A stretch of DNA of 62,075 bases, taken from NCBI GenBank assembly GCA_002719675.1, contig PBID01000017.1, forward strand, positions 1-62,075, given 5' to 3'. Below, one piece after another: positions 1,368-62,075 of the stretch. Each line of letters starts with the position of its first letter. Position 1 is the stretch's first letter. The notes under the pieces were generated by a model. It saw only the letters and a list, made by a program, of their open reading frames with translations, was not told the origin of the DNA and searched no databases. Position numbers and translations under genes: made by a program. This DNA comes from Chloroflexota bacterium. Its GTDB lineage: Bacteria; Chloroflexota; Dehalococcoidia; Lucifugimonadales; GCA-2719675.

Positions 1368-2543
1368 TTATTTCTTAGATTGATCATATTTATCGCCAGC
1401 TTTCTTGACAGATTGTCTTCTTTTTTCCATCAATTCATGCCTTAAATCAGCTGACCATTTCTGAGATCTGGTTAAACTAGGTAAAGAATCTTGAAATTCA
1501 GGAGCAACATATCTAGAAATTAATTCATAACTATTAAGAATTTCATCTCTTGTAGCAAATTCAGTAGCCTGAACAAGCAAACCACCAAAACCACCAGTCT
1601 CAATATTTAATTGTTTAATTGCATCAATCAAATCATCAGGGGTGCCAATCACCCAAGTTCCTTTTTCCACCATAGCATCAATAATTTTTTCAGGAGGCCC
1701 ATCATATACTGAATCAAATCCCATAGTATTTTCAAAATAATCCCTCTGATAGTAAGCAGCACCCATACGTGCTTGTTCCATAGCTTTTTCCCGGGAACTT
1801 GCCAAATGAACTACTATCACTATTCTCCAATTTTCACGTCTAACTTCTTTATCATGCTGTTTTGCTGTATTTTCAGCAATCTCCCAAAAATCCTTTAAAG
1901 TATTACTATAACTTTCGTTAGAAACTGTATACGATTTTAATCCAAGTGATAACACACCCGCACCATGTTTTCCTGCTAAAACCATGCCGGAAGGTGATTG
2001 TGCAGCAGCTACTGAAATTGGAAAATGAGGTCGTGTGTATGGCTTTAAATGAACAGCTGCATCATTCAACGAAAACCAATCTGATTTATGAGTAATTGGG
2101 GTAGTTTCGGTTAGCAATCTCATTATTATTCCCAAAGATTCATCCATTCTTTCACGTTGTGTCAAAGGATCAATGCCCAACATATGTGCATCTGTTGCAA
2201 GAGCGCCAGGGCCTACTCCCATCATTACTCTTCCACGAGTTAGATGATCTAAAAGTATCATTCGATTTGCAACCATTAATGGATTATGATAGGGAAGGCT
2301 TATTACACCTGTCCCCAATTTAATATATTTGGTTCTTGCAGCTGCATTCGCTATAAACAACTCAGGAGAAGAAATAGTTTCCCAACCTCCACTATGATGC
2401 TCCCCAATCCACGCTTCATCAAAATCTAAACGATCTAAATGCTCAAGTAATTCTAAATCCCGTTCTAAGCCTACTGTGGGATTTTCACCTAGCCTGTGAA
2501 AAGGTGCCAAAAATGTTCCGAATTTCATCCTCTGGTTTGTCAT
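1368..2543 (-). CDS. luciferase-like flavin monooxygenase, limonene 1,2-monooxygenase type
   Basis: The 391-residue product begins MTNQRMKFGTFLAPFH and carries the bacterial-luciferase TIM-barrel layout: an early WIGEHH segment, then LGTGVISLPYHNPLMVANR, then RGRVMMGVGPGALATDAHMLG. The opening FGTFLAPFHRLGENP resembles limonene 1,2-monooxygenase (LimB) and relatives, which use reduced FMN supplied by a separate reductase. The natural substrate is not fixed by sequence. The ATG at 2543 is supported by AAAGGTG four to five bases upstream. The gene is divergent from the nuclease gene at 2649, with a 7-bp inverted repeat between them. Multiple paralogues of this superfamily are a known trait of SAR202 Chloroflexota; another lies at 5574. 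Confidence 0.85.
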   Translation of the reverse strand: MTNQRMKFGTFLAPFHRLGENPTVGLERDLELLEHLDRLDFDEAWIGEHHSGGWETISSPELFIANAAARTKYIKLGTGVISLPYHNPLMVANRMILLDHLTRGRVMMGVGPGALATDAHMLGIDPLTQRERMDESLGIIMRLLTETTPITHKSDWFSLNDAAVHLKPYTRPHFPISVAAAQSPSGMVLAGKHGAGVLSLGLKSYTVSNESYSNTLKDFWEIAENTAKQHDKEVRRENWRIVIVVHLASSREKAMEQARMGAAYYQRDYFENTMGFDSVYDGPPEKIIDAMVEKGTWVIGTPDDLIDAIKQLNIETGGFGGLLVQATEFATRDEILNSYELISRYVAPEFQDSLPSLTRSQKWSADLRHELMEKRRQSVKKAGDKYDQSKK

Positions 2544-2648: not shown

Positions 2649-3305
2649 ATGCCATTGCGAAGAGACAAACCATATATTTGGACAACATGGATAACAAAAC
2701 TGCTATCTGGGGACAATTCATGTGAGTGGGCAGCTCAATTTAAATCATTACATGAAAGTAAATCTTATTCCAAAGCGAGCACAGGGTTTGACTCTGCTAA
2801 ATGGCAAATTGAACATACCGATTTACTAAATAGAATCAGAACAAACCTAGAAACAGAAGATCAAACCATATATACAGAAAACCAAAACTACTTTAATCTT
2901 CATGGTAAAAGTGCAACTTTATCAGGCAAACCAGACTTAGTAACTATCAATGGAAATAATGGAATAATAATTGATGCTAAAACTGGTGAAGAATCAGCAT
3001 CTCATATGATCCAACTTCTAATTTATATGTACGCTTTACCAAAAGCTTTACCTCAATATGGAAGCATCAAATTCGAAGGAAAAATCATTTATTCAAATAA
3101 TGAAGTTTTTATTCCATCTGATGCTGTTAATAACAGTTTTACAGAAAAATTAGTAGGACTAATTAAAAGGATTACCTCTGAGACCCAAGCAAATAAAATC
3201 CCAAGCTCTCAGGAATGTAAATTCTGTAACATCACTTCATCAGATTGCGCAGAAAGAATAGAACAAGATGAACCTCCTATAGCTTCATCTACTGATGATT
3301 TTTAA
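2649..3305 (+). CDS. PD-(D/E)XK nuclease with Cas4/AddB-type Fe-S cysteines
   Basis: The 218-residue protein holds the RecB-family nuclease core: GKPDLV (metal-binding Asp), then IIIDAKTGEE (the D-x-K-T-G motif), then QLLIYMYAL (Q-x3-Y). One cysteine near the N-terminus (C25 in SCEWAAQF) and three near the C-terminus (C-x2-C-x6-C in ECKFCNITSSDC) reproduce the four-cysteine arrangement that holds a 4Fe-4S cluster in Cas4 and AddB. The likely activity is metal-dependent DNA cleavage. No cas genes, CRISPR array or helicase gene lies nearby, so this is a stand-alone member. It starts a plus-strand series and is followed 24 bp later by an oxidoreductase gene. Confidence 0.75.
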   Translation: MPLRRDKPYIWTTWITKLLSGDNSCEWAAQFKSLHESKSYSKASTGFDSAKWQIEHTDLLNRIRTNLETEDQTIYTENQNYFNLHGKSATLSGKPDLVTINGNNGIIIDAKTGEESASHMIQLLIYMYALPKALPQYGSIKFEGKIIYSNNEVFIPSDAVNNSFTEKLVGLIKRITSETQANKIPSSQECKFCNITSSDCAERIEQDEPPIASSTDDF

Positions 3306-3329: not shown

Positions 3330-4334
3330 ATGTCACCAAAATCAAAGATTAATATTGGATTAATCGGTTTAGGTAGTTGGGCACAGCAAGCATATGTCCC
3401 CGCTTTGTCAGAGATGCAAGATTTAGTATCAGTCAAGGCAGTAGCTGCTAAATCGCAAAAAACCAGAGATTTAGCAAAAAATATTTTTCATAAAGAAAAT
3501 ATTTTACTTTTCGAAGGCTACGAAGACTTAATTAAAAACTCTCAAGTTGACACTATAATGATTGGATTACCAAGAAAAATCACTACAAATGCTACAAAAC
3601 TTGCATTAGAAAAAAACTTAAATATATTTGTTGAACCACCTTTTGAATATGAAAATTTGTCTAATGAAATTTTAACAACCGCATCTTCATACGATAAAAT
3701 TTTTCACGTAGATATTGAACTTAGATTTTTACCTATAATCACAAAATGTCATGACTTAATCAATTCTGGAAAACTTGGCGAAATACTTAAAACAACTGTC
3801 ACATTAGAATGTGATTGGTTTAAAGACGCTACAGATGATGTAAAAAAAACTAATGAATTCGTCAAAGGATTATCCACTTGGTATATTGACCTCATAGATT
3901 TGTTTTCAAACCATAACCCAAGGCGAATCAAAGTTTTGGGAAAATCTGAAAATCAAACCGATCAAATATCTTTTGGAAACGTATTAATTGAGTATTCAAA
4001 CAATTACATCGGAGAATGGAATTTCAATCTAAATAAAACTAATGTTTTTAATCTTAAGCTTAACTTGTCAGGATCGAAAGGCCAAATAGAAACAAATTTG
4101 ATTGAAGGGACTTACACGTTTAATAATGATCAAAATTCTTCTTCCGGAATTATAAAAGCTTCATCTCCTACGCTAGGTTTTGTTGGAATGAGAGAAAGTA
4201 TTAAAGCTTTCATAGAATCAATTCAAGATCACAAACAATCTCTATCAAACGCAATCTCATATAATAATATCCACATCCTACAACATGGAATTTCTAAAAG
4301 TATAGAAACAAATCAAATAATAACAATTAATTAA
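3330..4334 (+). CDS. Gfo/Idh/MocA-family oxidoreductase
   Basis: The 334-residue product opens with an NAD(P)-binding Rossmann segment (INIGLIGLGSWAQQAYVPAL) and continues with the family's alpha/beta C-terminal domain. These enzymes oxidise or reduce sugars, inositols and related alcohols. The usual E-K-P motif, whose lysine takes part in catalysis, reads VEPPFEYE here, so the lysine is replaced by proline; activity may be altered or the protein may be non-catalytic. The ATG is preceded by AAGGA. It sits 24 bp after the nuclease gene, so the two are probably co-transcribed. A 19-bp repeat begins one base after its stop codon. Confidence 0.75.
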   Translation: MSPKSKINIGLIGLGSWAQQAYVPALSEMQDLVSVKAVAAKSQKTRDLAKNIFHKENILLFEGYEDLIKNSQVDTIMIGLPRKITTNATKLALEKNLNIFVEPPFEYENLSNEILTTASSYDKIFHVDIELRFLPIITKCHDLINSGKLGEILKTTVTLECDWFKDATDDVKKTNEFVKGLSTWYIDLIDLFSNHNPRRIKVLGKSENQTDQISFGNVLIEYSNNYIGEWNFNLNKTNVFNLKLNLSGSKGQIETNLIEGTYTFNNDQNSSSGIIKASSPTLGFVGMRESIKAFIESIQDHKQSLSNAISYNNIHILQHGISKSIETNQIITIN

Positions 4335-4353
4335 ATAAGTATCATTTGTGTAA
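4335..4353 (+). repeat. 19-bp direct repeat, left copy
   Basis: ATAAGTATCATTTGTGTAA starts directly after the stop of the oxidoreductase gene. An identical copy lies at 5545-5563, just upstream of the ribosome site of the next plus-strand gene. The two copies bracket a 1.2-kb segment. Confidence 0.9.
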
Positions 4354-4476
4354 TTAGATACAAAATCAGTACCTTCATACGCTTACAAAGAAGATTACAG
4401 TGAATTTGATCATTCTTCTAGCATTTAAAAATACTGTGTCTGTGATTTAAATAGAACAAATGTCAACACAGTAATA

Positions 4477-4704
4477 CTAAAAATATTTATAGTCAAACGA
4501 TTCCCATAATTCAAACACTAAATCACTTTCGAATTCTCTAAGTTTACTAGGAGCTCCTCCTCCAAGCTTACTGGATGTAATATCTGGATTTATCGTTACT
4601 TTTGGCTCTTTTAGGATTCCTAATTGGCTTGACGAGATTTTTGATTCACATGCGAAAGAAACAATCAAAAGAAAAATTGTTAAAAGTAATAAATTCCAAT
4701 TCAT
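4477..4704 (-). CDS. possible small lipoprotein or secreted peptide
   Basis: The 75-residue frame has a hydrophobic N-terminal segment (WNLLLLTIFLLIVSFACESK) and a polar remainder. The cysteine follows SFA, which does not fit the usual lipobox L at -3, so lipidation is uncertain. No strong ribosome site precedes the ATG. The gene lies within the repeat-bounded segment 4335-5563. I do not recognise the polar part. It may be a real small exported protein or a chance frame. Confidence 0.4.
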   Translation of the reverse strand: MNWNLLLLTIFLLIVSFACESKISSSQLGILKEPKVTINPDITSSKLGGGAPSKLREFESDLVFELWESFDYKYF

Positions 4705-4957
4705 ATCGAAAATTATACTCTCTTTTTATAGTCACCAGTCTTAAGCCTTATCCTATATTCGCAGACTTAATTTGCAAGTTTTAGGTAATTTTGGGTACGA
4801 AGGTAGTTTTTTTATTTCCTTGCTAATTTAATAGCTATCTAGTTGTTGCACGAGTACTGATTGAGTAAACGCTAATGCAACCTACCAACGTACCATAGAT
4901 AATATTATCATACCCTTTTTTATAAGACTTGAAATAGATGGAACCCATTGTTTTAGA

Positions 4958-5128
4958 TTAAAACCAAAAAGTAGATAATGAAACAATATTAATTCCAATA
5001 AAAGCAACTCCAATAATTATTTGCATAGTGTGTTTACCTTTGAGCAAGTTTTCGCTCAGCTTAAGATAAACAAGTAATGATCCAGACAGTATGCCAAGAC
5101 CTACTACAAAACCAAGAAAACTTTCCAT
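4958..5128 (-). CDS. small membrane protein, two helices
   Basis: The frame encodes a 56-residue protein (MESFLGFVVGLGILSGSLLV...) with two hydrophobic helices separated by a short basic loop (NLLKGKHT). A longer frame beginning with TTG at 5158 exists, but AGGAGGT lies inside that extension at about 5139-5145, so ATG at 5128 is the better start, although the spacing of about 14 bases is long. It lies in the repeat-bounded segment. I do not recognise the family and propose no function. A structured region at 5253-5313 would be in its leader if transcription begins upstream. Confidence 0.5.
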   Translation of the reverse strand: MESFLGFVVGLGILSGSLLVYLKLSENLLKGKHTMQIIIGVAFIGINIVSLSTFWF

Positions 5129-5252
5129 AATCTCAGAATTATACCTCCTATTTTGCAAACACGGATTGTGAACTTTGGTTCAGTAATCCGTGCATTCATA
5201 ATTCCTTTTTGAAAAATTTGAGATAAAGATAGTCAAATAAATTAAACGAGCA

Positions 5253-5313
5253 TTTATCAGGCGAGTAGGCTCTGATAAAAACTCAGTTTCGTGAGAGAAA
5301 CTAAACTGATAAG
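5253..5313. ncRNA. candidate structured RNA with alternative pairings
   Basis: TTTATCAG (5253-5260) pairs with CTGATAAA (5272-5279), and AGTTTC (5285-5290) pairs with GAAACT (5297-5302). A second CTGATAA copy at 5306-5312 could replace the first as partner of TTATCAG. Mutually exclusive pairing is typical of regulatory leaders, but strand and function are unknown. It could precede the small membrane gene (minus) or the luciferase-like gene (plus). Confidence 0.35.
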
Positions 5314-5465
5314 TTATAACATTATATCACATAAACCAAGCGATATTCCATATTCTATATCTGAGCGTTACAATTCCCATTATTTTTTGCCAATAGATTA
5401 ATTATGAATAGTTACAAAAAAAATCACTAGCCCTCCTGACATAAACAGACAAGTTTGGACATCTG

Positions 5466-5494
5466 TTGACAAGTAAATGTAGTTAAACGAGAAT
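5466..5494 (+). promoter_or_regulatory. sigma70-type promoter candidate
   Basis: TTGACA (5466-5471), a 17-base spacer and GAGAAT (5489-5494). It would start transcription near 5500, about 70 bases before the luciferase-like gene, and lies inside the repeat-bounded segment. Confidence 0.5.
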
Positions 5495-5544
5495 GTGTGA
5501 ACCTAAGTAGCTATAGATTTCACAAAATGAGATGGTTTTAGCTG

Positions 5545-5563
5545 ATAAGTATCATTTGTGTAA
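5545..5563 (+). repeat. 19-bp direct repeat, right copy
   Basis: Identical to 4335-4353. It ends where the ribosome site (AAGGAG) of the gene at 5574 begins. Removing one copy and the intervening DNA would leave 30 bases between the stop at 4334 and the ATG at 5574. Confidence 0.9.
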
Positions 5564-5573
5564 AGGAGTAAAA

Positions 5574-6515
5574 ATGCACCAACCCACAATGGACTTCGGA
5601 TATAATCCTCCTACTGGCCCTAGAAGTATGGAAAAAATCAGACCAAGTTTCTTTTCTTTAGATTTAGAGAAAACTCTGAACATAGCTTCAAATGGATTCA
5701 AGTCAATTTGGGTGTCTGATCATTTAAATTATACTGATGAATTTCGACTAGAATGTTGGACTTTGTTAACATGGATAGCGGCAAAATTTCCTCAATTCGA
5801 CTTAGGAACGATAGTAATGTGTAATTCATTTCGAAATCCATCATTGATGGCAAAAATGGCCGCAACTATTCAACACCTTAGTAATGATAGATTGATTCTA
5901 GGATATGGCGCAGGATGGTATGCAGAAGAATATAAAGCTTTTGGATTCGAATATCCAAAAATAAAAATTCGTACAGAAATGTTAGCTGAAGCAACTCAAA
6001 TCATGAAAATGCTTTGGAATAAAAGTAATGCAACTTTTGAAGGACAATATTACCAAATCAAATCAGCAAATTGTGAACCGAAGCCTAAAAAAGCGCCACC
6101 AATTATGATAGGAGGTGGAGGTGAAAAATTTACTCTAAAGGTAGTAGCTAAACATGCTGATTGGTGGAACGACCTTTCAAGACCTATTGACGAAGCAAAA
6201 CATAAACTTAAAATTTTAGAAGAACATTGTGTTAATGAAGGAACAAACTTTAAAAAAATCAGAAAAACTATGACCGCTAGAATTTTCATAGACAATTCTC
6301 ATTCTAAAGCTCAAGAAAAAATCAAAAGCATGGGATTATACATAGAAAATCCTCCTATTGCAGGAGATCATGTTTATGTAACTGAAAAATTAACAGAAAT
6401 AGCAGAATTAGGATTCGATTTATGTATCGCAGTACTAGAAGATTTTCAAGACCAAGAGGATATGAAATTATTTTCAGAAAAAGTTATTCCCAATTTCAAA
6501 TCTACTGAAAAATAA
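5574..6515 (+). CDS. luciferase-like (LLM class) flavin- or F420-dependent oxidoreductase
   Basis: The 313-residue product has the luciferase-like barrel: SIWVSDHLNY near the N-terminus, DLGTIVMCNSFRNPSLMAKM, then the phosphate-binding-like LILGYGAGWYAEEYKAFG and a PIMIGGGGEK segment. Members reduce or oxygenate small organics using FMNH2 or coenzyme F420; which one is used here is not clear. A frame from 5532 exists, but AAGGAG lies in that extension 5 bases before ATG 5574, so 5574 is the start. It is probably co-transcribed with the deacetylase-like gene two bases downstream. It is a different subfamily from the enzyme at 1368-2543. Confidence 0.85.
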   Translation: MHQPTMDFGYNPPTGPRSMEKIRPSFFSLDLEKTLNIASNGFKSIWVSDHLNYTDEFRLECWTLLTWIAAKFPQFDLGTIVMCNSFRNPSLMAKMAATIQHLSNDRLILGYGAGWYAEEYKAFGFEYPKIKIRTEMLAEATQIMKMLWNKSNATFEGQYYQIKSANCEPKPKKAPPIMIGGGGEKFTLKVVAKHADWWNDLSRPIDEAKHKLKILEEHCVNEGTNFKKIRKTMTARIFIDNSHSKAQEKIKSMGLYIENPPIAGDHVYVTEKLTEIAELGFDLCIAVLEDFQDQEDMKLFSEKVIPNFKSTEK

Positions 6516-6517
6516 TT

Positions 6518-7651
6518 ATGTCGCCTAACAAAGCCGCTTTTATATATTCTGACAAACTTAGCCAACATATTCTAAGTACTTCTCATCCTATGCAACCCAA
6601 AAGGTTAGCAATGACATATGATCTATTAAAACAATATAATGCATTCAATCAAAATAATGCTAATGTAATCCCTCCTAGAAAAGCTACTAGAAATGAATTG
6701 ATTAAATTTCATACTAAAGACTATATCGATGCAATTGAAAACATGAGTAATAACCCAAATACCATTTCTGCGGCATTATATAACCTAGGAACTGCAGATA
6801 ATCCTTGCTATCCACAGATGTTCGAAGTTGCGTTACTTTCAACTGGTGGGTCAGCTTTAGCTGCTGACTTATTAATTTCTTCAGAATATGACTCAGTTTT
6901 CAATATTTCTGGAGGACTGCACCATGCAATGAGATCAAATGCTTCAGGTTTTTGTGTATTTAACGATCCAGTAATTGCTATAGAAAAATTTTTAGAACAG
7001 AAAATGAAAATCGCTTATATTGATATTGACTGCCATCATGGCGATGGAGTCCAAGAAGCATTCTACGACAGAGACGACGTTTTAACTATCTCAATACATG
7101 AATCAGGTGCATTTTTATTCCCTGGCACAGGAAACACAAATGAAATTGGAACAGGGAAAGGTAGAGGATACTCAATCAATGTTCCACTTTATCCATATAC
7201 TTACGATGAATTATATAAAGACACTTTCAAAAAAATTGTTCCTCCTCTTATAGAATTTTTCCAACCTGATGTTTTAGTTACACAAATGGGAATAGATTCA
7301 CATTTCCAAGATCCTATTACTCATTTATCTTTAACCGTTCAAGGATTCACTGAAATTCTCAAAATATTCAAATCATTCAACCTTAAATGGTTATCACTTG
7401 GTGGTGGTGGATACAATTTAAAAGCAGTTGCACGTGCCTGGGCAAGTGGCTGGGGGGTAATATCTAATCAAACTTTACAAAATGACATTCCAATAAACTT
7501 CAATCAAACTCACAACATATCATCTTTATTCGACATCTCTCCTCCTAAAATTACAGATGATATAAAAAATGTTTGTAAAAAATTTGTTGATAAAAATATT
7601 TCAACACTTGAAAAAGATCTTAAAGCAATTTACTCAATTAATTTCGATTAA
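6518..7651 (+). CDS. histone-deacetylase/AcuC-family metallohydrolase
   Basis: The 377-residue product carries the full class I/II deacetylase core: GGLHHAM (tandem His 135-136), YIDIDCHHGDGVQ (zinc ligands D171 and H173), MGIDSHFQDP (third zinc ligand Asp) and WLSLGGGGYNL. The fold removes acetyl or acyl groups from amines, for example acetyl-lysine, acetylpolyamines or acetoin-pathway proteins (AcuC). No histone substrate is implied in a bacterium. The ATG lies two bases after the stop of the luciferase-like gene, so translation is probably coupled and the two may act in one pathway. All key residues are present. Which acylated substrate it uses is not evident. Confidence 0.85.
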   Translation: MSPNKAAFIYSDKLSQHILSTSHPMQPKRLAMTYDLLKQYNAFNQNNANVIPPRKATRNELIKFHTKDYIDAIENMSNNPNTISAALYNLGTADNPCYPQMFEVALLSTGGSALAADLLISSEYDSVFNISGGLHHAMRSNASGFCVFNDPVIAIEKFLEQKMKIAYIDIDCHHGDGVQEAFYDRDDVLTISIHESGAFLFPGTGNTNEIGTGKGRGYSINVPLYPYTYDELYKDTFKKIVPPLIEFFQPDVLVTQMGIDSHFQDPITHLSLTVQGFTEILKIFKSFNLKWLSLGGGGYNLKAVARAWASGWGVISNQTLQNDIPINFNQTHNISSLFDISPPKITDDIKNVCKKFVDKNISTLEKDLKAIYSINFD

Positions 7652-7722
7652 ACAAATTACTTCAAGTTAGTTGCATATTTCTTTGTCCTAATGAGAAAAT
7701 AGAATGAAGTTATACCTAATAT

Positions 7723-9084
7723 GTGACAGGAACATTAGTGAACCCAAACTCAAAAAAAATATTTAATTCAAAAATATCTCCTACAAGTTTAATTACACCC
7801 TTCCAGCAATTTACAGCTCTAGAAGCTTCTGCTGGGATAGTAATGTTTATTGCAGCTATTGCTGCTTTATTATGGGTAAACTTAATAGGCTTAGAATCTT
7901 ATGAAAATATTTGGAAAACAAAACTAACTATCGGTATTACTTCTTTCTCTATAGACGAGACGCTTCATTTTTGGATAAACGAGGGTCTGATGGCAATATT
8001 CTTTTTTGTTGTCGGTCTAGAAATCAAAAGATCAATGATTTTAGGTGATTTATCATCTCTGAAAAAATCTGCATTTCCTATTATGGCAGCGATAGGAGGG
8101 ATGTTGATTCCTGCATCAATTTTCATTGTCCTAAATTACAACCAAGAAACCATCAATGGCTGGGGAATTCCCGTAGCAACTGATATTGCATTTTCTCTTG
8201 GAGTTCTTTCGTTACTGGGTAGGAAAGTTCCTCTAACATTGAAAATCTTTCTAACCGCATTAGCTATAGTTGATGACATAGGTGCAGTACTTATCATCGC
8301 CTTGTTTTACACATCTGAGATAATTTGGCTAAAAATAGCTATAGCTGGCATTTTACTCATATTATTAATTGTGGCAAACACTTCAGGAATTCGAAATATA
8401 ACTATTTATTGCGTGGTAGGAATATGTGTTTGGATATGCTTTTTACATTCTGGAATTCATGCAACAATTGCAGGAGTTTTAGTTTCAATGACAATTCCAT
8501 TAAAAGTCCAGATAAACACTTCCGAATTTGTTGAACGTTGTAAAAATCTTTTAAAATATTTTGAGCCACCATATCACTCCAGAACTTCAAAGGGTAGTTC
8601 AGCTCTAAGTACTACAGAACAAAGGAGTGCATTAAATGGCTTAGAAATTGCAGTCAAAGAAGTAGAATCTCCTCTTCAAAGATTAGAACATAGTCTCCAC
8701 TATTGGGTAGCATTTTTTATAATTCCTATTTTTGCATTATCTAATTCTGGATTCATTATTGACCAAGATGCTATATCTAATACCGGTTCTCTAACAACAG
8801 GAATAATTTTCGGACTTGTAGCAGGCAAACCAATAGGAATATTTATTTTCAGTTATTTATCCGTAAAATTAGGAATCTCAAATCTGCCTTCAGGTGTAAA
8901 CTGGAAACAAATAGTTGGAATTGGGTTCTTAGGTGGAATCGGATTCACCATGTCTATATTCTTGAGCGGATTAGCTTTCGAATCATACGATTTAATTTCT
9001 ACTTCCAAAATGGCTATTTTTGGTGCATCTTTACTGGCAGGCATTGTAGGTTTCTTAATTTTAAAACTTACAAAAACTAATTAA
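7723..9084 (+). CDS. nhaA: Na+/H+ antiporter NhaA
   Basis: The 453-residue membrane protein has the NhaA hallmarks: GLEASAG-like opening (FTALEASAGIVMFIAA), FFFVVGLEIKR, PVATDIAFSLGVL and ALAIVDDIGAV with the paired aspartates D184/D185 that bind Na+ and H+. It exchanges cytoplasmic sodium for protons. A polar insert of some 55 residues (from about VERCKNLLKYF to AVKEVESPLQRLEHSLH) separates the two halves; comparable inserts occur in many longer NhaA proteins. The start is GTG at 7723, without a strong ribosome site; a GTG five codons on is an alternative. It is 71 bp after the deacetylase gene. Sodium export fits a marine setting. Confidence 0.95.
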   Translation: MTGTLVNPNSKKIFNSKISPTSLITPFQQFTALEASAGIVMFIAAIAALLWVNLIGLESYENIWKTKLTIGITSFSIDETLHFWINEGLMAIFFFVVGLEIKRSMILGDLSSLKKSAFPIMAAIGGMLIPASIFIVLNYNQETINGWGIPVATDIAFSLGVLSLLGRKVPLTLKIFLTALAIVDDIGAVLIIALFYTSEIIWLKIAIAGILLILLIVANTSGIRNITIYCVVGICVWICFLHSGIHATIAGVLVSMTIPLKVQINTSEFVERCKNLLKYFEPPYHSRTSKGSSALSTTEQRSALNGLEIAVKEVESPLQRLEHSLHYWVAFFIIPIFALSNSGFIIDQDAISNTGSLTTGIIFGLVAGKPIGIFIFSYLSVKLGISNLPSGVNWKQIVGIGFLGGIGFTMSIFLSGLAFESYDLISTSKMAIFGASLLAGIVGFLILKLTKTN

Positions 9085-34547: not shown

Positions 34548-34733
34548 ATGCCGTTTAACTTAGGACCAACTGAACTCATTATTGTTTTAGTAATAGTGAT
34601 GATACTTTTCGGTGTTGGGAAACTACCGGAAATTGGAGGAGCTGTAGGAAAAGCTCTTAGGGAATTTAAAGAATCTCAAAAGTCTGATAAAGAAAAAACT
34701 AACAAAACAAAGGACGATGTAGCTAACAAATAG
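34548..34733 (+). CDS. tatA: Sec-independent translocase subunit TatA
   Basis: The 61-residue protein has the TatA plan: a single N-terminal membrane helix (LGPTELIIVLVIVMILFGVG), the FG hinge, KLPEIGGAVGKALREFK amphipathic helix and a charged tail. It forms the protein-conducting part of the Tat system. GGAGAT precedes the ATG. It is separate from the tatB-like/tatC pair at 43077. Confidence 0.95.
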   Translation: MPFNLGPTELIIVLVIVMILFGVGKLPEIGGAVGKALREFKESQKSDKEKTNKTKDDVANK

Positions 34734-34921
34734 CTGTATCCCAATTTAAATAAATCTCTTTTAGATTATGAAAGTCTTTGAATCGGGATACTTCATTATA
34801 TATATCAGATCGCAATGAAAATTAAGTTGAAATATATGATAAATATCCAACCTGAAAGATGGCGTTAGCAATAAGAATTAATTGATAAGGATACTATACT
34901 TCTTGCTATTTTTGGCAATAA

Positions 34922-35749
34922 TTAAGACCCAGTAAAACCACAAAATTCTTCATAATCTATTAACTCTGTTACCGTGGGATTATCGCCACATAAAGGACAT
35001 TTTGGATTCTTATGAATTTTCAATTCTCTAAATTCCATAGTTAATCCATCTATTAAAAGAAGCCTTCCCGACAGAGAAGAACCTATCCCCATTATAATCT
35101 TTACAGTTTCTGTAGCTTGAATTGTGCCAACCAATCCAGGTAGCATGCCTAATACGCCAGCTTCTGCGCAACTAGGGACTTCACCAGGAGGGGGAGGTTC
35201 CGGGAACAAACATCGATAGCAACCATTTCCAGGCAAATAAACTGTTGCCTGTCCATCAAAAATTAAAATACTACCATCCACTAAAGGTTTATTATTTAAG
35301 TAAGATGCATCATTTGTTAAATATCTTGCAGGGAAATTATCTGCTCCATTAATTATCACATCATACTTAGAAATAATTTCCATAGCGTTATCAGAATTTA
35401 AAGGTTCTTCATGATTAACTACATTTACATCTGGATTATATGCTTTTAATGTTTCAGTTGCAGAAACAACTTTTCTTTTGCCAACATCGCTATCATAATG
35501 CAGAATTTGTCTTTGTAAATTTGTAATATCAACTGTATCAAAATCTACTATTCCAATAGTTCCAACACCAGCCAAAGCTAAATATATTGCTACAGGAGAT
35601 CCTAATCCACCTGCACCGACAATCAAAACCTTAGAATTCAACATTTTTCGCTGACCATTACTACCTACTGTAGGCATAATTATATGTCTGCTATATCTTT
35701 GAACTTGATGAGGAGTCAATGGTTTTAAAATTTGATCATTTGACATCAT
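34922..35749 (-). CDS. MoeB/ThiF-family E1-like adenylyltransferase
   Basis: The 275-residue product shows RYSRHIIMPTVGSNGQRK, nucleotide loop VLIVGAGGLGSPVAIYL, VDFDTVDITNLQRQ and two zinc-binding pairs (CYRC and CPLC). A cysteine in PSCAEAGVLG matches the catalytic thioester or persulfide residue. These enzymes adenylate the C-terminal Gly-Gly of sulfur-carrier proteins for molybdopterin or thiamine synthesis. MoeB versus ThiF cannot be settled, as no cofactor genes are adjacent. GGAG precedes the ATG pair at 35749. Confidence 0.85.
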   Translation of the reverse strand: MMSNDQILKPLTPHQVQRYSRHIIMPTVGSNGQRKMLNSKVLIVGAGGLGSPVAIYLALAGVGTIGIVDFDTVDITNLQRQILHYDSDVGKRKVVSATETLKAYNPDVNVVNHEEPLNSDNAMEIISKYDVIINGADNFPARYLTNDASYLNNKPLVDGSILIFDGQATVYLPGNGCYRCLFPEPPPPGEVPSCAEAGVLGMLPGLVGTIQATETVKIIMGIGSSLSGRLLLIDGLTMEFRELKIHKNPKCPLCGDNPTVTELIDYEEFCGFTGS

Positions 35750-46694: not shown

Positions 46695-47378
46695 CTATCT
46701 ATTTAAGTCAGCTCCACATTCAGGACAAAATTTTTGATCTTCTTTAACTTTAAATTTACACTCCGGGTCCGGGCAAATATCTTCATCAATATCTTCATCA
46801 ATAATTTCTTCTTCAGATGAAAAATTTACACCACATTCAGGACAAAATTTTTGATCTTCTTCAACTTTAAATTTACACTTCGGGCAAATATATTCGTGTT
46901 CATCAATAATTTCTTCTTCAGATGAAAATTCATTTATACCTTTATTGATTAAATCGAATGCGTTAGAATCTGGAGAAATATAATTAAGTGTTGCGACAGT
47001 CCCTTTGTCCAAATAAACATCTACTGATTGATATCCTAAAGGCCTCCCTAATATACCATCCCTAACTTTAACATCCCTAATATTAGAAAATGGAAACAAA
47101 AACCTCTGGCTGCCAAAAAGCCCTCCTCTTTGATAAACCAAAGAATTTTTTGATATCGCATAGAAAGTCCTTTTAGTTTCCAAATATCTTGGTAAAACTA
47201 CAACGAGTATGACTACAGCGCCAGTAATTTCTTCTATAACACCAAAAGCATATAAAGCCAATAATACTATCAACCATGGCAGTGAAGACCATAACCAAGA
47301 ATACGGAACTTGTTTAACAATTTCACTATCATCTGGAACCTTAATATTGCGCCCCAATGGATCTCTTTTATTTGACAT
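46695..47378 (-). CDS. bacterial PH-domain (bPH2) membrane protein with two zinc ribbons
   Basis: The 227-residue protein has two close membrane helices (WLWSSLPWLIVLLALYAFGV; TGAVVILVVVLP), then a bPH2 domain (YAISKNSLVYQRGGLFGSQ, FPFSNIRDVKVRDGILGRPLG) and two C-terminal zinc ribbons (CPKC..CPEC; CPDPEC..CPEC) separated by acidic linkers. The ribbons are near copies. bPH2 proteins are membrane-associated with unknown roles. GGGAGAA precedes the ATG. The neighbours are hspR upstream and amidohydrolases downstream. Confidence 0.85.
   Translation of the reverse strand: MSNKRDPLGRNIKVPDDSEIVKQVPYSWLWSSLPWLIVLLALYAFGVIEEITGAVVILVVVLPRYLETKRTFYAISKNSLVYQRGGLFGSQRFLFPFSNIRDVKVRDGILGRPLGYQSVDVYLDKGTVATLNYISPDSNAFDLINKGINEFSSEEEIIDEHEYICPKCKFKVEEDQKFCPECGVNFSSEEEIIDEDIDEDICPDPECKFKVKEDQKFCPECGADLNR
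46714..46941 (-). repeat. 117-bp tandem duplication encoding the zinc ribbon
   Basis: The segment from 46714 recurs from 46831 (period 117 bp), encoding FSSEEEIIDE plus the zinc-ribbon unit twice. A three-residue change (CPDPEC against CPKC) and small length differences separate the copies. Confidence 0.8.
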
Positions 47379-61757: not shown

Positions 61758-62075
61758 TTATTTATTTTGATTTTTTCTGCGCATGCCAACTAAAACACCT
61801 ACTGGTAATAATAAAAACATCATATTGACAACCCCCGTTGCAAAAGATGTTTCCTCAGCAGCAAAGCAGCCTCCACCAGAAGATTCGGTAGGTGTTGCTG
61901 TAGGTGGTACAGATGTTGCTGTAGATGGTACAGATGTCGCTGTAGGTACTATCTCAGAAAGCTTAGTCGAAATCTTTTTTGAAATAGGTATAGGCGTTGG
62001 TGTAGGAGGAAGCGGTACAGGTGTTACTGTAGGCGGTACAGGTGTTGCTGTAGGCGGTACAGGTGTTGCTGTAGG
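61758..62075 (-). CDS. surface protein fragment with Pro/Thr stalk and Cys C-terminal anchor
   Basis: The frame is open from the right window edge to TAA at 61758, giving the last 105 residues. It starts with heptads of the PTATPVP type, then a short SKKISTKLSEI break, further TATSVP repeats, and ends SGGGCFAAEETSFATGVVN, a hydrophobic stretch MMFLLLPVGVLVG and RRKNQNK. A Gly-rich Cys motif, hydrophobic segment and basic end form a tripartite C-terminal sorting signal of the CTERM kind. The protein is probably surface-anchored by its tail. The N-terminal functional part lies outside the window, so its role is unknown. Confidence 0.8.
   Translation of the reverse strand, partial: PTATPVPPTATPVPPTVTPVPLPPTPTPIPISKKISTKLSEIVPTATSVPSTATSVPPTATPTESSGGGCFAAEETSFATGVVNMMFLLLPVGVLVGMRRKNQNK
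62020..62075 (-). repeat. 21-bp tandem repeats in stalk region
   Basis: The 21-bp unit starting GGTGTTGCTGTAGGCGGTA occurs at 62020 (one variant), 62041 and 62062 (cut by the window edge), coding for PTATPVP heptads on the minus strand. A related, more diverged array is at 61891-61948. Confidence 0.85.

Follow-up and report, generated by a model that had tools for sequence, protein, structure and literature searches.

What has to be explained in a four-gene operon of this bacterium is a 1.2-kb interruption bounded by two identical 19-bp sequences: was this DNA inserted, where did it come from, and by what route? The stretch analyzed (hereafter the window) comprises 62,075 nt of contig PBID01000017.1, forward strand, from assembly GCA_002719675.1. 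The host is an uncultured marine bacterium of the SAR202 clade with a small genome, represented by a draft metagenome assembly (G000; 1,403,377 bp in 19 contigs, 90% complete, 4.5% contaminated). It was compared with a sister species, SAR202 MAG OSU_TB36 (G001; VFGW01000008.1), the sole other genome compared from the genus and family. Both genomes are drafts of about 1.4 Mb and about 90% completeness. Apart from indels, the window is syntenic with contig C8 of the sister species, at ~82% identity.

An insertion with a 19-bp target duplication

The operon lies on the forward strand and consists of genes for a PD-(D/E)XK / Cas4-like nuclease (2649-3305), a Gfo/Idh/MocA oxidoreductase (3330-4334), a luciferase-like (flavin-dependent) monooxygenase (5574-6515) and, last, a histone-deacetylase-fold protein (6518-7651), the second and third of which are separated by the 1.2 kb under study. 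The perfect 19-bp repeats described in an earlier note on this DNA, ATAAGTATCATTTGTGTAA, occur at exactly the positions given there, 4335-4353 and 5545-5563, both on the forward strand. The TAA of the Gfo/Idh/MocA gene is followed immediately by the left copy, and the right copy ends directly before the AGGAGTAAAAATG of the luciferase-like gene, whose AGGAG ribosome site stands 10 bases ahead of the ATG at 5574, so that both placements were read correctly.

In the sister species the same genes, in the same order, flank a gap of 29 bases (empty site within L048 7003-7034) that reads Gfo-TAA-ATAGTATCATTTGTGTAA-AGGAGTAAAAATG-luciferase, or, with its left flank, ...ATTAATTAA-ATAGTATCATTTGTGTAA-AGGAGTAAAAATG..., and that carries a single near-identical copy of the motif (L048 7008-7023; 18/19 bases). 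Removal of one repeat and the inner 1191 bases from the window reproduces this junction in alignment, save for one indel and one substitution, and the flanking DNA is 93% (Gfo) and 91% (luciferase-like) identical between the two species. The search of a related genome for the junction without the segment, which the earlier note had proposed, thus found it, together with the normal operon gap that had been predicted (30 bp in the reconstruction). The insertion is real because the sister species keeps the empty site, and from this site and the match of the reconstruction it follows that DNA was inserted here with duplication of a 19-bp target. Distant relatives (L015-L017) retain the luciferase-like gene and do not polarize the event, since no Gfo gene was recognized upstream of it by ORF inspection.

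A chance origin of the repeat pair is ruled out by simulated sequences and by the copy count over the whole genome. Within 2 kb, the longest direct repeat was at most 18 bp in 100/100 simulated 62-kb sequences, and the 19-mer has two exact copies in the entire 1.40-Mb genome, both at the ends of the insert; with up to three mismatches allowed, one further place is found (3 mismatches). In the sister species, matches away from the junction all carry three mismatches. Judged by the copy search in both genomes, the repeat is part of the target and lies outside any dispersed repeat family. The earlier note had envisaged, as grounds for doubt, relatives that all keep the segment or a 19-mer common across the genome; the first is contradicted by the sister species, from which the segment is missing, and the second by the rarity of the 19-mer in the genome. 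Longer short-range repeats do occur in the window (65, 37, 31, 30 and 21 bp), and all of these are short-period repeats, 21-132 bp apart, at 25-272, 46714-46930 and 62027-62070. As a class, the short-period direct repeats of the window extend over 25-272, 46714-46930 and 61890-62075, and include 132-bp units in a WD40/TolB-like ORF, a type with 105-117-bp spacing, and 21-bp units at the contig end.

Since the event, the luciferase-like and deacetylase-fold genes would depend on read-through or on a promoter within the insert. The earlier note had placed a promoter there, and a sigma-70-type candidate, TTGACA-17-GAGAAT, is indeed present on the forward strand (5466-5494) and could drive the luciferase-like gene; it is a consensus match only, of a kind no commoner than chance predicts. 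The insert also supplies an in-frame ATG at 5532, with a possible 14-residue extension of the luciferase-like protein.

Content and origin of the insert

The inserted segment (4354-5544; 1191 bp), missing at the syntenic site of the sister species, has a G+C content of 31%, like that of neighbouring DNA. It holds three units, a 56-aa gene, a hairpin and a truncated lipoprotein gene. In each, a TATAAT-like box precedes an ATG by a few bases, and all three would be transcribed from the opposite strand. The two small genes had been described as orphans in the earlier note, and neither is: one has an orthologue in the sister species and the other is a truncated member of a 41-copy family.

The first of these, on the minus strand at 4958-5128, codes for a small membrane protein of 56 aa and begins with ATG (the listed 66-aa ORF begins at an upstream TTG). 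Its homologue in the sister species (G001:C23:7635-7805; 82% DNA and 71% protein identity) belongs to another cluster, where a zinc-ribbon gene and a TlpA-like gene flank it. The gene is present once in each of the two genomes and is lacking in 57 further genomes of the order. Homology ends a little upstream of the TATAAT box on one side and a little past the stop codon on the other, so the neighbours on both sides differ between the species, while the promoter-like TATAAT region (5129-5157, minus strand) is common to both copies. Synonymous divergence of the gene is equal to that of the luciferase-like gene (dS 0.42 vs 0.43) and its dN/dS is ~0.4, values that mark it as a vertically inherited, constrained gene that has been relocated. 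The cluster of the host genome that corresponds to the sister's C23 cluster, on contig C11, is rearranged and without the 56-aa gene.

Two observations were made on these contigs. On C11, around an aquaporin-like gene and a lipoprotein gene, there are recurrent pieces resembling the 3' end of a 174-aa gene (L064:1869-1924, 2795-2846 and 3402-3493; one pair is 91% identical over 56 nt). They are possibly the mark of an older insert with a long target duplication, a reading that is unproven because synteny with the sister species is lacking on the right-hand side. A TlpA/thioredoxin-like gene has an in-frame TGA at its active site in both species (L064:6324-7013 on C11; L054:8154-8843 on C23 of the sister), in the conserved context LFMWASW-TGA-GCRAQLP, and is a candidate selenoprotein gene; no tRNA-Sec was found in the scanned stretches, which cover part of the genome.

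The second small gene (4477-4704, minus strand; 75 aa) has a lipoprotein signal and a TATAAT about 7 bases upstream of its ATG. It represents the N-terminal half of the protein, and as it covers only positions 1-77 of the 157-position family model, it is probably a relic. Full members of the family are ~150-180 residues long and share a C-terminal GWTWT..V motif. There are 41 matches in the host genome (contigs C1, C2, C3, C6, C9, C11-C14 and C16-C19), and 27 in the sister genome (C4-C6, C8, C10, C12, C17, C18, C20, C23 and C24), while 23 further genomes of the order gave no match; examples are L064:2865-3332, 7277-7732 and 7815-8261, and L065:1441-1884. This is a striking genus-specific expansion in a small genome, and may merit study more than the insert itself. 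That lipoprotein genes are usually borne by repeat-flanked inserts was considered and is unsupported, as indels near other copies have no junction repeats.

Between the two genes lies the hairpin unit (4794-4924, minus strand), with a TATGAT promoter-like box, ATGGTACGTTGGTAG (ATG GTN CGT TGG TAG) and a long stem, GGTACG-UU-GGTAG...CTACC-UU-CGTACC, that encloses a symmetric UU/UU internal loop. Strict copies outside the insert number one in the host genome (C2) and two in the sister (C24), located at L065:1981-2080 and L055:1890-1980 and 2015-2160 (minus strand), and in both genomes occur only upstream of an orthologous amidohydrolase gene. The units start with ATG GTN CGT TGG (MVRW) a few bases after the TATAAT-like box; the change in the Val codon is synonymous, and TAG follows in 3/4 units. 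From these features, a small RNA or a leader-peptide element is possible. A dispersed mobile repeat was rejected, there being only two strict copies per genome and a single gene downstream of those outside the insert, and so was an integron attC, as inspection found no paired GTT/AAC ends and an integrase is lacking.

Of the remaining DNA, 4421-4480 (minus strand) is a decayed remnant similar to the terminal part of a small ORF at G000:C2:2102-2162 (74% over 61 bp), and the origin of the 385 bp from 5160 to 5544 was not traceable. The insert has no match among phages, plasmids or IMG/VR viral contigs, and Rfam gave just chance matches below threshold. As the 56-aa gene, the lipoprotein family and the hairpin are native to the genus, and phage, plasmid and viral matches are absent, the insert is lineage-native accessory-cluster DNA and not foreign.

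Routes of arrival

The segment carries no recombinase or transposase gene, and terminal inverted repeats are absent: the alignment score of its two ends was matched by 25% of shuffles, and its longest inverted repeats are internal (9-10 bp). Both statements had been made in the earlier note, and the caution it drew from them, that the insert would be non-autonomous or recombination-made, was well placed. Its proposal to look for further copies of the 19-mer or of the inner 1.2 kb was also followed, and neither a second copy of the insert or its ends nor a donor copy was found in the 1.40-Mb host genome; the sister genome gave only two partial matches.

As a control, indels of at least 250 bp were counted in sampled stretches of the two genomes (642 kb of the host vs 612 kb of the sister). 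There are 22, and an exact junction repeat of more than 13 bp occurs only at the 1.2-kb insert; at the other 21, exact junction repeats are never longer than 13 bp, so no repeat-making element is seen acting repeatedly. The distribution is lopsided, with extra DNA in the host in 19 cases and in the sister in 3, and the sister may be losing genes or the host lineage gaining them. Within the window, a 1.29-kb segment that carries another luciferase-like gene (1368-2543, minus strand) is absent from the sister at 1253-2542, and ~125-190 bp of non-coding DNA is missing there at 34733-34922, in both cases without junction repeats.

The best explanation, to which we give a probability of about one half, is a one-off relocation of ~1.19 kb of the genome's own accessory DNA, captured at a staggered break. 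A break in the 30-bp gap would have left overhangs of 19 nt, a loose fragment would have been joined in, and filling of the overhangs would have produced the 19-bp duplication, a repair-type, Ku-independent capture. The outcome would be a single relocation and not an element with ends of its own. Against this, a duplication of 19 bp is tidy for breakage and repair, there is no donor copy, and 385 bp are without traceable origin. Ku was found in neither genome (it is present in 7/59 genomes of the order), which probably means that classical bacterial end joining is unavailable.

Two other routes are each rather unlikely, and we rate them equally. Non-autonomous transposition, in which a transposase supplied in trans would recognize the ends and make a 19-bp staggered cut, accords with the clean change from a single to a double copy of the target with both flanks intact, and a single cut-and-paste move would account for the two locations of the 56-aa gene, within the insert in the host and in another cluster in the sister. 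Transposition is hard to reconcile with ends that lack terminal inverted repeats and occur once in the genome, or with 21 other indels that have no comparable duplications. To our knowledge, 19 bp also exceeds most described insertion-sequence duplications.

The second of these routes starts from a circular DNA with the same 19-mer, which would have integrated through a short-homology crossover or a site-specific recombinase such as XerCD, the repeats being the crossover core. This route, too, would leave direct repeats around a segment and a single copy at the empty site, and TTTGTGTAAAG agrees by eye with the XerD arm TTATGTTAAAT (PMC13141974) at 6/11 positions. The XerC arm, however, is poorly matched, and the sister site is one base short in the would-be spacer. 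A dif consensus search of both genomes gave no convincing site, and the lineage's own dif was not found. The only tyrosine recombinases found are of Xer type (XerD-like in the host; XerD- and XerC-like in the sister), and neither an integrase beyond these nor plasmid or phage relatives of the insert came to light.

Somewhat less probable again is that the insert predates the species split and was lost precisely by the sister through recombination between the 19-bp repeats. Deletion between direct repeats is a normal route for such a loss, and given the 19 vs 3 indels, the sister may delete DNA often. Yet the repeats are still identical in the host, the 56-aa gene must have been at, or moved to, another locus in the sister, and the scenario itself still needs an insertion at an earlier date, with the same 19-bp duplication.

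We consider it improbable that the insert records a single visible move by an as yet undescribed system through which small modules of promoter plus gene (lipoproteins, small membrane proteins and the hairpin unit) are shuffled within small SAR202 genomes, with long target duplications left behind. If such a system were real, it would help explain how the lipoprotein family came to number 41 in a genome of 1.4 Mb. Least credible is a misjoining of the segment into the operon during assembly, for which the draft state of the genome (19 contigs, 90% complete, 4.5% contaminated) and the accessory clusters with related sequence near several contig ends could be cited, but which needs two coordinated false joins, both junctions sharing the same 19 bases with the empty site, and which has to account for inserted genes that are single copy and genus-native.

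Comparison with known systems

As an insertion with target duplication and a relocation of accessory genes, the event is of a familiar kind; it has the look of an isolated occurrence, not of a new mobile system. Its value is that of a gene relocation resolved to the base pair in an uncultured, small-genome marine clade: a genus-specific gene was moved with its sequence preserved, and a compact operon was split by its arrival.

Direct repeats at the ends, with one copy at the unoccupied site of a relative, are what insertion sequences and transposons leave, for example TnPZ of Helicobacter pylori, an element with genes of its own, constant ends and terminal inverted repeats that makes 7-bp duplications (AAGAATG) at many sites (PMC2731543). 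The present insert, unlike TnPZ, occupies one site, has a 19-bp duplication and lacks inverted repeats and a recombinase gene. In being small gene modules bounded by short related sites, the XerCD-dependent dif modules of Acinetobacter plasmids are similar; their 28-bp sites comprise arms for XerC and XerD plus a spacer of 6 bp (PMC13141974), whereas the 19-mer fits these arms poorly and is found nowhere else in the genome. Integron cassettes share the small genes, nearby hairpins and variable clusters, but no integron integrase was found in either genome, the host's sole PF00589 protein being XerD-like (genome ~90% complete). Integration at attC sites, moreover, does not duplicate a 19-bp target.

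There is also a likeness to numts, mitochondrial DNA fragments captured at double-strand breaks (PMC2567098): loose, non-mobile DNA joined into a break, without element ends and as a one-off. Numts are described there in primates, with end joining, whereas here the setting is a bacterium in which no Ku was detected, and a duplication of 19 bp implies that the break was staggered.
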